Part shown: positions 25,264-28,632 of the stretch, piece after piece | Position numbering within the stretch: position 1 is the stretch's first letter | How the letters are laid out: each line of letters opens with the position of its first letter | NCBI RefSeq assembly: GCF_034259325.1 | Contig: NZ_JAXIVS010000022.1 | Span: 1-64,000, forward strand | DNA length: 64,000 bases | Reading direction: 5' to 3' | Origin: Hyalangium ruber | GTDB taxonomy: Bacteria > Myxococcota > Myxococcia > Myxococcales > Myxococcaceae | The notes under the pieces: model-generated | Told to the model about the DNA's origin: nothing | The model's input: the letters and a program-made list of their open reading frames with translations, nothing else | The model's database searches: none | Translations under genes and position numbers: made by a program

Positions 25264-25782
25264 TTACGGCGTCCCCGCGTCCGGCTTCTTCTCCGGCCTG
25301 CGCAGCGGACACGCCACGATGGCTCCTTCCGGATCGATGGCGTCCTTGCCGGACTCCACCTTGAGGATCTTCCGACCCTCGCCAATCACGAACGTGTAGC
25401 GCTGGGCGAAGGACACCACCGGTGTCTTCACGTCGAACGACTTCACCACCTTGCCTTCCGGGTCGGGGATGAAGGCGAACGGCGCCTTCAACGATTCCTT
25501 GAACTTCTTCAACGTCACCGCGTCATCCATGGAGACGGCCAGGACCTGGCCGTTGAGCTTCTCGATGTCCGCGTACCGGTCCCGGTACGCCGAGAGCTCG
25601 CGCGTTCAACCAGGTGTGAACGCCTTGGGGAAGAAGGCCACGATGACCGGGCCCTGCTTCACCATCTCCGACAACGTGTACGTCTTGCCGTCAGTGTCCG
25701 TCACCGTGAAGTCCGGCGCCGTGTCACCAACTTGCGGGACGGCTCCCGAAAAGAAGCCCGTCACCAATATGGGAAGGAGCAT
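25264..25782 (-). CDS. Candidate selenocysteine-containing peroxiredoxin (in-frame TGA)
   Basis: Reading through one TGA (25606-25608) gives a 172-residue peroxiredoxin. Residues 16-58 read [20 protein letters not shown] ... [13 protein letters not shown], the TGA is codon 59, and the frame goes on [20 protein letters not shown] to a TAA/TGA-free end at 25264. The TGA is exactly where the peroxidatic Cys of Bcp-type enzymes lies (TPGCT; compare 15669-16106). A near-perfect hairpin follows 15 nt after the TGA. This supports selenocysteine insertion (TPGUT). The N-terminal 16 residues are hydrophobic and may be a signal. It lies 56 bp downstream of an SsnA-family gene, same strand. A nonsense mutation is the alternative. 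Confidence 0.8.
25571..25590 (-). promoter_or_regulatory. Candidate bacterial SECIS hairpin
   Basis: On the coding (minus) strand GCGTACCG and CGGTACGC form an 8-bp perfect stem with a GGAC loop (a ninth G-C pair is possible in theory). The loop begins 24 nt after the TGA codon, within the spacing reported for bacterial SECIS elements, and starts with G residues as required. It is inside the coding sequence. Confidence 0.7.
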
Positions 25783-25838: not shown

Positions 25839-27134
25839 TCAGCCGCCCGCCATCCGCGCCCACACCGCCGAGGCCGCCTCGCGCGCCTGATCCGCCACCA
25901 CCGTCGGGTTCACCGACAGCGGCCGGCGCGCCCACAGGCGCCACGTGCCCTCCACCATCACCGCCTCCACGTGCCGCGAGCCCAGGCCGAACACCACGTG
26001 CCAGGCCAGGTTCTCCGCCGAAAGCGGCGTGGCCGGCAGGTAGTCCAGGATGAGCAGGTCCGCCAGCGCGCCCTCGCGCAACGGCCCCACCGGCGTGTCG
26101 AACGCCTGCGTCGCCAGCCGGTGGCCATTGGCCAGGTAGCGCAGCACGTCGATGGGCTGCCCCGCCTCCTGCGAGCGCAGGTACGCCGCCTGGGCCTCGG
26201 CGAAGAGATCCGCGCACAGCCAGTCGGCGCCCAGCGTCGCCCGCGCGCCGAACTTCAGCGCCGGCGCGTACCCCACCTCGAGCCGCTGGTTGGAGCGCGG
26301 CGTGTGGACCAGCCACGCGCCCGTGCTGATGACCTGCGCCAGGTCCGCCCACGCCAGGTGCCCCGCGTGCGCCATCAGGCTCTTGGGCGACAGCAGGCCG
26401 TTGTCCATCAACCGCGACACCGGCGCCGCCCCGTGGCGCTCCACCGAGAGCTTCTCGTCCAGCGGATCCTCCGCCAGCGGCAGGTGCAGCCCCGTGTTGG
26501 TGGAGGCCAGCGCCTCCTTCAGCCCCTCCAGCGCGTCATTGCCCAGGGTGAAGGTCGGCCCGGCGCCCACCTGGCCCCGGAAGCGCCCCTTGGCCTTGCG
26601 GGCAAAGCCCACCGTCTCCTCCAGCCCTTCCTCGCGCCCCACCGCCCCCATCCGGTCCGTCACCGCGTAGGAGAGCACCCCGCGCACCCCCACCTCGTGC
26701 AGCCCGCGCGCGACCCGTACCAGCGAGCCGGAGATGGCCTTGGGCGAGGAGTGCCAGTCGAACAGCGTGGTGGTGCCGCATTGCAGCGCCTCGAGGCCTC
26801 CCGCGCAGGCGGCCACCTGCACCGCGTCCCCGTCCAGCGCGCCCTCGTAGCGCCAGCGCACCTTCTCCAGCACCTCCTGGTAGCTGTCCAGCTTCGGCTC
26901 GGGCATGCCCCGGCCCAGCGACATGTGCAGCCGGTGGTGCGCGCTCACCAGGCCCGGGAAGACGAGCTTGCCCGACAGGGCCACCACCTCGTCCTCCGGC
27001 CCGGGCCGCAGATCCGGCCCGCGCGCGACGATGCGCTCGCCCTCGATGCGCAGGTCCACGCGCTCGACGACGGCCGGCTCCAGCTCGACGACATTTCCAC
27101 CCTTGAGGACGGTGCCCAACGGCCCTCCCACCAC
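25839..27134 (-). CDS. ssnA: SsnA-family amidohydrolase-like protein with altered metal ligands
   Basis: A 431-residue amidohydrolase-superfamily protein. It matches SsnA, a family linked to selenium metabolism, over its whole length: GKLVFPGLVSAHH, CGTTTLFDWHSSP, VGVRGVLSYAVTDR, LVHTPRSNQ and FGLGSRHVEAVMVEG near the C-terminus. The usual H-x-H ligand motif (SHNH in Escherichia coli SsnA) reads HHR, and the strand-5 HIHxAE reads HLPLAE, so two metal ligands seem lost. The later His (MAHAGH) and Asp (LGADWL) remain. Catalysis is therefore doubtful. GTG start; GTG 27131 or TTG 27119 are possible. It precedes the candidate selenoprotein by 56 bp. Confidence 0.82.
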   Translation of the reverse strand: MVGGPLGTVLKGGNVVELEPAVVERVDLRIEGERIVARGPDLRPGPEDEVVALSGKLVFPGLVSAHHRLHMSLGRGMPEPKLDSYQEVLEKVRWRYEGALDGDAVQVAACAGGLEALQCGTTTLFDWHSSPKAISGSLVRVARGLHEVGVRGVLSYAVTDRMGAVGREEGLEETVGFARKAKGRFRGQVGAGPTFTLGNDALEGLKEALASTNTGLHLPLAEDPLDEKLSVERHGAAPVSRLMDNGLLSPKSLMAHAGHLAWADLAQVISTGAWLVHTPRSNQRLEVGYAPALKFGARATLGADWLCADLFAEAQAAYLRSQEAGQPIDVLRYLANGHRLATQAFDTPVGPLREGALADLLILDYLPATPLSAENLAWHVVFGLGSRHVEAVMVEGTWRLWARRPLSVNPTVVADQAREAASAVWARMAGG

Positions 27135-27275: not shown

Positions 27276-27725
27276 TCAGCGAGCGGCGACCGGGGGACGG
27301 GGCTCGCCCTGGGCTGGCCGCTCGGCGCTGCCTGCCCGCTTGAGCTTCACCACCTCCGCCGTCACTGTCACGCTGCTGGGCAGCGGCACGAAGAAGAAGA
27401 TGGCGCCCAGCACCTTCTGTACGGGCAGGTACTGCGTCTGCCGGAAACGGACGTTGATGGCGCCATCCCCGCCCATCTCCCGCACCTGGGGGATGAGCAC
27501 CTCGCGCAGGCCCGCGTCGATGTCCGTGCCCACCACGTCAATGAAGCCGAGCAGCAGCACGCCCGAGCGCGTGGCCTGCACCACGCCCAGGCTCTCGTAG
27601 GGCTCGGCGATGTCGCCCGCGGCGAGGAAGGTGTCCGGGCCGCCGGGCTGCGAGGGGATGGAGGCGGTGTTGATGACGGTGCAGCCGGTGAGGGCCACGA
27701 GCGAGAGGGCAAGCACGAGACGCAT
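27276..27725 (-). CDS. Paralogous lipoprotein 3 of 3
   Basis: A 149-residue lipoprotein: MRLVLALSLVALTGC with lipobox LTGC. The conserved core is YESLGVVQATRSGVLLLGF, then VLIPQVREMGGDGAINVRF and QTQY. It is closely similar to the gene at 28177 and more distantly to 27737. A GTG at 27740 would overlap the upstream stop (GTGA), adding five residues; the ATG at 27723-27725 gives a signal peptide like its paralogues. Last gene of a three-gene lipoprotein operon. Function unknown. Confidence 0.78.
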   Translation of the reverse strand: MRLVLALSLVALTGCTVINTASIPSQPGGPDTFLAAGDIAEPYESLGVVQATRSGVLLLGFIDVVGTDIDAGLREVLIPQVREMGGDGAINVRFRQTQYLPVQKVLGAIFFFVPLPSSVTVTAEVVKLKRAGSAERPAQGEPRPPVAAR

Positions 27726-27736
27726 CGAAGGAGGCC

Positions 27737-28180
27737 TCACGGAGCAGACAGGAACTGGATGACTTCGCCGGTGACCACCACCGAGCGGTTGCGCGTCTTC
27801 ACGCCTCCGCCCGAGCCGCTCAGGGCGCTGGAGACCGATTCGGAGAGGTCCGAGACCCGCTCCACCTCGGTGGGTGGGTTCTCGTCGTTGAACTCGATGT
27901 GGATGACGCCATCGCCGCCCATGCCCAGGGCCACCTGGGAGAGCGTGCCCCGGATGGTGCCGTCCAGCCCAGCCTCGCCCATGTCCGACACGCCGGCGAC
28001 GGTGACGCCGTAGCCCGTCACCTGCGCGAAGCCCAGCGTGCGGTAGGCGCGTGGGGCGCCACCGGTGCTCAGGTAGACGCCGCGCTCGTCGGCGGAGGGA
28101 CGGTTGGACAGCGGCGAGCCGCGCACCGTGGCGCCGCAGCCGGTGGCCACCACCAGCAGCAGGGGGAGCAGCAGTCTCAT
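27737..28180 (-). CDS. Paralogous lipoprotein 2 of 3
   Basis: A 147-residue lipoprotein: MRLLLPLLLVVATGCG, lipobox ATGC. The core YRTLGFAQVTGYGVTVAGV and VALGMGGDGVIHIEF corresponds to SLGVVQATRSGVLLLGF and MGGDGAINVRF in its neighbours, but it is the most diverged of the three. The C-terminus VVVTGEVIQF matches TAEVVKL of the others. Its ATG overlaps the preceding stop by 4 bp (ATGA). Function unknown. Confidence 0.8.
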   Translation of the reverse strand: MRLLLPLLLVVATGCGATVRGSPLSNRPSADERGVYLSTGGAPRAYRTLGFAQVTGYGVTVAGVSDMGEAGLDGTIRGTLSQVALGMGGDGVIHIEFNDENPPTEVERVSDLSESVSSALSGSGGGVKTRNRSVVVTGEVIQFLSAP

Positions 28181-28632
28181 AGCGAGGTACCCGGGACGCT
28201 CGTCACCGTGCCGGTTCCCGGAGGTGCGCCGCCGGGCTCGAGCTTCACCACCTCGCCGGTGAGGGTGGCCTCGTTGGGCAGCGGCAGGAAGAAGAGGATG
28301 GCAAAGAGGATGCGGGTGGGCAGCGTGTACTGCGTCTGCTGGAAGCGCACGTTGATGACGCCGTCGCCGCCCATGTTCCAGATCTGCGGCATGAGCTGCT
28401 CCTCCAGCGTCCCCTGAAGGTCCGTGCCGGCGGGGTCCGCGAAGCCGAACAGGAGCACACCGCGCCGCGTCGCCTGCACCACGCCCATGCTCTTGTAGGG
28501 CCCGGGGATGTCCGAGGTGGAGACGAACACGCCCCGGCTGCTCCGGTCGGCGGGTACCCGCGCCACGTCCACCGTGGTGCAGCCTCCCAGCACCGCCACC
28601 CACCCCAGCACAAGTACCAGCCGACCCCACAT
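28177..28632 (-). CDS. Paralogous lipoprotein 1 of 3
   Basis: A 151-residue lipoprotein: MWGRLVLVLGWVAVLGGC, lipobox LGGC. The mature domain holds YKSMGVVQATRRGVLLFGF, QIWNMGGDGVINVRF, QQTQY and a hydrophobic strip ILFAILFFLPLP before TLTGEVVKLE. First gene of the lipoprotein operon, facing the Ser/Thr kinase gene across 156 bp. The hydrophobic strip and GGDG turn are shared with the gene at 27276. Function unknown. Confidence 0.82.
   Translation of the reverse strand: MWGRLVLVLGWVAVLGGCTTVDVARVPADRSSRGVFVSTSDIPGPYKSMGVVQATRRGVLLFGFADPAGTDLQGTLEEQLMPQIWNMGGDGVINVRFQQTQYTLPTRILFAILFFLPLPNEATLTGEVVKLEPGGAPPGTGTVTSVPGTSL

Follow-up and report, generated by a model that had tools for sequence, protein, structure and literature searches.

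PrxU of Eubacterium (Peptoclostridium) acidaminophilum is an AhpC/TSA protein with selenocysteine (Sec) as its peroxidatic residue. Peroxiredoxins with a TxxU motif (Prx, PF00578) are an established family of bacterial selenoproteins, a class of proteins said to be rare in aerobic lineages (PMC13188914). Three Sec-peroxiredoxins were listed in 2006 for the myxobacterium Anaeromyxobacter dehalogenans (PMC1794560, Table 3); our literature search, which covered few subscription journals, found no myxobacterial Sec-peroxiredoxins beyond those of Anaeromyxobacter. We present here a peroxiredoxin gene of Hyalangium ruber from a 64,000-nucleotide stretch of its genome, the whole of which is referred to as the window. 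On its open frame, the position of its UGA, the Sec machinery of the genome, the exchange of UGA and Cys codons among homologues, a conserved hairpin and the predicted fold, the gene very probably encodes a selenoprotein in which UGA codon 59 is read as Sec. The original prediction had called such proteins an established class elsewhere and their presence here new; the class is indeed known and this gene is a further member of it, while the claim of novelty has to be narrowed in view of the Anaeromyxobacter proteins. With this gene, a selenoprotein would be added to a lineage that is usually considered aerobic.

Gene, predicted fold and proposed activity

The gene occupies 25264 to 25782, in line with the original prediction, which named no strand; it lies on the minus strand and is read from 25782 downward, the plus strand not being the coding strand. 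Its frame contains exactly one internal TGA, at codon 59 (25606 to 25608, minus strand), and ends in a normal TAA; translated with TGA as U, it yields 172 amino acids plus the stop. The predicted Sec occupies the peroxidatic position of a PxxxTxxU motif (PKAFTPG-U-T). Pfam AhpC-TSA (PF00578) matches residues 18 to 139 across the TGA (3.7e-33, 114.5 bits versus a cut-off of 26), in agreement with the original reading of a complete peroxiredoxin interrupted by one TGA. The full frame is absent from standard ORF calling, which meets a stop at the catalytic codon, and standard annotation would miss or split the gene, as it would in dozens of relatives. A hydrophobic stretch at the N-terminus (residues 1 to 16; 25735 to 25782, minus strand), conserved in its start and hydrophobicity and missing in the PrxQ paralogues, is possibly an export signal or membrane anchor. 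An ordinary Bcp-like paralogue is also found in the window (16094 to 15747, minus strand), and none of the 17 other AhpC/TSA paralogues of the genome has a TGA.

An AlphaFold2 model from 47 orthologues (pLDDT 87.8) matched BcpB best among solved structures (5epf; Z 24.8, rmsd 1.9 over 149 residues), with further matches to AhpE (1xvw; Z 23.5) and Sulfolobus Bcp1 (Z 23.4). The protein thus combines the family profile with the thioredoxin-like peroxiredoxin fold, and it has both the PxxxTxxC/U motif (PKAFTPGU) and the conserved catalytic Arg (R128). The orthogroup alignment A4 (47 sequences) shows no variation at Sec/Cys59, Arg128 or Cys158, and T56 is conserved in more than 90%. Cys158 (TGT; 25309 to 25311, minus strand), a candidate resolving cysteine, lies just past the C-terminal helix and is lacking in PrxQ-type paralogues. 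Its local spacing is similar to that of the resolving Cys151 of human Prx5; equating the two residues was considered and left unsupported, the structural alignment ending at model residue 158 on residue 161 of 1hd2.

In the mechanism that we propose, the ribosome would decode UGA codon 59 as Sec by means of SelB, tRNA-Sec and a SECIS hairpin within the coding sequence. Sec59 would be the peroxidatic residue, its selenolate attacking peroxide to give a selenenic acid. The partner in the selenenylsulfide that probably follows would be either Cys158 or a thioredoxin-like protein itself, and the latter would then reduce Sec59 again. That Sec is inserted, that the protein acts as a peroxidase and that Cys158 takes this part are what we infer.

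A Sec protein of peroxiredoxin fold that acts mainly as a thiol-disulfide oxidoreductase or redox sensor, and not as a peroxidase, would account for weaker matches to ResA-like oxidoreductases and for scores below the cut-off of every named peroxiredoxin equivalog model, including PrxU (NF040737; 47.6 bits, far under the cut-off of 270) and Bcp thiol peroxidase (NF006960; 72.9 bits versus 140). We consider this unlikely, however, given the PxxxTxxU motif, the invariant Arg128, the rank of Bcp and AhpE peroxiredoxins as the closest structures, and the absence of a UxxC or CxxU motif.

Selenocysteine machinery and SECIS-like hairpin

A search for selA, selB, selC and selD had been named as a check on the original prediction, and the H. 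ruber genome contains all four, the set that marks a bacterial selenoprotein producer: tRNA-Sec (selC; anticodon TCA, 72 bits), SelB (307 bits, cut-off 242), SelA (567 bits) and SelD (386 bits). Of 145 genomes across the order, 128 have a selA that scores above the cut-off, and tRNA-Sec was found in 118. The selD gene (L018, G000:C7:62733-63659, minus strand) has an in-frame TGA of its own in the catalytic loop (HCAG-U-AAK), with a G-loop hairpin downstream (GGCGCAG-GTC-CTGCGCC). SelD is therefore a second predicted selenoprotein of this genome, and the organism has at least two. No match above the cut-off was obtained in the genome for a Sec formate dehydrogenase, and the weak matches have no TGA.

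The core SECIS-like hairpin of the peroxiredoxin gene (25571 to 25590, minus strand), recognized by folding, conservation and pair counts, consists of an 8-bp stem, GCGTACCG/CGGTACGC, and the loop GGAC. It begins exactly 15 nt past the TGA, with the apical loop, which starts with GG, 23 nt past it. The 20-mer folds at -13.1 kcal/mol, and a 61-nt stretch that includes it folds at -25.7 kcal/mol (z -2.47 versus dinucleotide shuffles). Folding also gives an extended hairpin (25555 to 25599, minus strand) with a lower stem from the arms AGCTCTCG...CGAGAAGCT, which is seen in the TGA forms of the nearest relatives. The published bSECIS model has a loop of 3 to 9 nt with G in the first two positions, a stem of 4 to 16 bp, a distance of 16 to 37 nt from the UGA and a minimum free energy of -7.5 or lower (PMC13188914), and the core hairpin falls within all of these limits with its GGAC loop, 8 bp, 23 nt and -13.1 kcal/mol.

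The place of the hairpin and its G-containing loop are as originally described; as evidence for a SECIS, the hairpin in this one gene is weaker than had been supposed. The peptide AYRDRYA alone yields a mean of 6.7 of the 8 pairs, and about 13% of its synonymous codings give a perfect 8-bp stem. Because the peptide nearly forces the stem, a hairpin in a single gene proves little, and conservation across species bears the weight. Among 36 TGA forms, 97.6% of cells keep the stem paired, versus 66.8% among 29 Cys forms. A stem of 8 bp or more within the bSECIS constraints is present in 31 of 42 TGA forms and in 6 of 39 Cys forms; the rate at random in-frame places is 4%. All sequences in these TGA and Cys counts were taken irrespective of relatedness. 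Three TGA sequences (L166, L174 and L180) show a compensatory AU-to-UA change on both sides of the stem, with the amino acids altered too. A tree-controlled test of hairpin against TGA, for which there were too few independent pairs, went in the expected direction without reaching significance (median p 0.25). Some TGA forms, from Pyxidicoccus/Myxococcus relatives and from family f2, have no perfect 8-bp stem and would need another fold; hairpins are shorter or shifted in the L029-type, L047/L048 and f2 forms. In six f2 loci with TGA (L190 to L194 and L196), from another family of the order, the usual hairpin is missing, and a shifted TCGGCG...CGCCGA is present instead.

Codon 59 across homologues and its history

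Codon 59 was compared in 121 homologous loci, a set that includes duplicates where the same genome was fetched twice, and was TGA in 65, TGC in 52, TGT in 4 and nothing else. The gene thus has an in-frame UGA at a redox-active position for which Cys homologues exist, and both the placement of the TGA at the peroxidatic codon and the expectation that orthologues would not all have Cys codons are confirmed. The orthogroup extends beyond this family, and beyond this class, within the phylum, with TGA there too. In genomes G077, G054 and G008, which have the orthologue but no properly identified selA or tRNA-Sec, codon 59 is Cys; the exception is an 87% complete metagenome-assembled genome (G124) with the TGA form, in which selA and tRNA-Sec were not found. 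Two Archangium-group genomes, G045 (L039, L142) and G048 (L042, L143), each have a TGA copy and a Cys copy. Apparent second TGAs in L148 and L181 to L183 proved to be the codons at which the gene normally ends.

The nearest relatives, L022 and L023, also have the TGA. Past this codon, L021 differs from L022 at 2, 3 and 13 sites in the first, second and third codon positions, respectively, and from L023 at 5, 1 and 16. Since changes between close TGA forms fall mainly at third positions, the region downstream of the TGA is translated, and the original description of these codons as open and conserved stands. A nonsense mutation that cut the gene and left a pseudogene would explain why standard calling meets a stop here, but this is very unlikely: dozens of species throughout the phylum share the TGA at the identical position, the coding sequence after it is conserved, no disabling change other than the TGA was found in the gene, and the TGA is replaced by Cys codons only. 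Near-cognate read-through of TGA occurs in bacteria, so the codon might instead be suppressed or read as another amino acid, such as Trp, without SelB. That reading is just as improbable, as the exchange partner is only Cys and never Trp, the genome has Sec machinery and the gene has a SECIS-like hairpin. An assembly or sequencing error, for which one base (TGA versus TGC or TGT) would be enough, has a negligible probability, with the TGA recurring in L022, L023 and dozens of loci from other assemblies. With the TGA common to many independently sequenced species and the sequence downstream translated, pseudogene and error are both excluded for practical purposes, and reading of UGA codon 59 as Sec is the interpretation that we retain.

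Exchange between Sec and Cys was traced on a tree inferred by maximum likelihood from 104 sequences and 134 columns, with the catalytic and hairpin codons excluded. With the outgroup counted, the tree needs at least 14 changes between TGA and Cys codons, and well-supported branches force 8 of these. Within the orthogroup, a Sec root implies a minimum of 13 changes (8 to 9 from Sec to Cys, 4 to 5 back) and a Cys root a minimum of 15 (7 to 9 from Sec to Cys, 6 to 8 gains). Log likelihoods were -40.7 for the free model, -44.5 for Sec-to-Cys changes only and -67.3 for Cys-to-Sec changes only, the last being a far worse fit. The probability of Sec at the root was 0.63, compared with 0.79 on an earlier tree. 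We think it likely that, in this Myxococcota orthogroup of mostly aerobic members, Sec is old and gave way to Cys on many separate occasions (every most parsimonious history contains 7 to 9 such replacements, beside 4 to 8 changes by which Sec was gained or regained), with remnants of the SECIS left behind. This history is at odds with published accounts, in which no Sec-to-Cys events were counted in peroxiredoxins (PMC1794560) or such events were limited mainly to FdhA and SelD (PMC13188914).

A close pair of sequences illustrates the exchange. Codon 59 is TGT in Archangium lansinium (L049/L056) and TGA in its relative A. violaceum Cb vi76 (L048, matching L059). The two genes differ at 19 of 507 nt (about 96% identical DNA), their catalytic codons are one base apart, and the 52 nt after that codon, including the hairpin region, are identical. 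Judging from this orthogroup, bacteria have swapped selenium and sulfur at a peroxidatic site many times, and the natural series that close species provide, with TGA in some and Cys in others, makes it directly testable why selenium is kept or dropped in an antioxidant enzyme.

Neighboring genes and comparison with known systems

Directly upstream on the same strand, with a gap of about 56 nt, is a gene for a 431-amino-acid amidohydrolase (25839 to 27134, minus strand), which possibly forms a two-gene transcript with the peroxiredoxin gene. It is SsnA-like only, scoring below the cut-offs of the NCBIfam SsnA models TIGR03314, titled "putative selenium metabolism protein SsnA" (296 bits, cut-off 455.5), and NF005540 (304 bits, cut-off 444). 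The SsnA-like gene adjoins the peroxiredoxin gene in 19 of 19 named, family-level myxobacterial loci (L051 to L069), but none was found close by in 11 further loci, most of them more distant; its adjacency is therefore lineage-bound, and it was rejected as a conserved partner. Farther upstream are tandem short putative lipoprotein-like genes with no Pfam match (27276 to 27740 and 28177 to 28632, minus strand), one of which has three matches nearby in L052.

This peroxiredoxin shares with the Sec-Prx family the AhpC/TSA fold, the PxxxTxxU motif, a UGA at the peroxidatic Cys and a downstream SECIS, the last represented here by the SECIS-like hairpin. The orthogroup differs from the known members in its C-terminal Cys158, hydrophobic N-terminus and frequent Sec/Cys exchange. 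Myxococcaceae are an aerobic group, and the host here, unlike those of the known Sec-Prx systems, is a large-genome relative of that family and not an anaerobe. What this peroxiredoxin has in common with PrxU (NF040737) is an AhpC/TSA protein in which Sec, here predicted, is the peroxidatic residue. Closest in sequence and fold are Bcp/PrxQ (NF006960) and BcpB/AhpE of Mycobacterium tuberculosis (5epf, 1xvw), from which it differs in that Sec would replace Cys and that the CxxxxC resolving Cys is absent, with the C-terminal Cys158 present instead.
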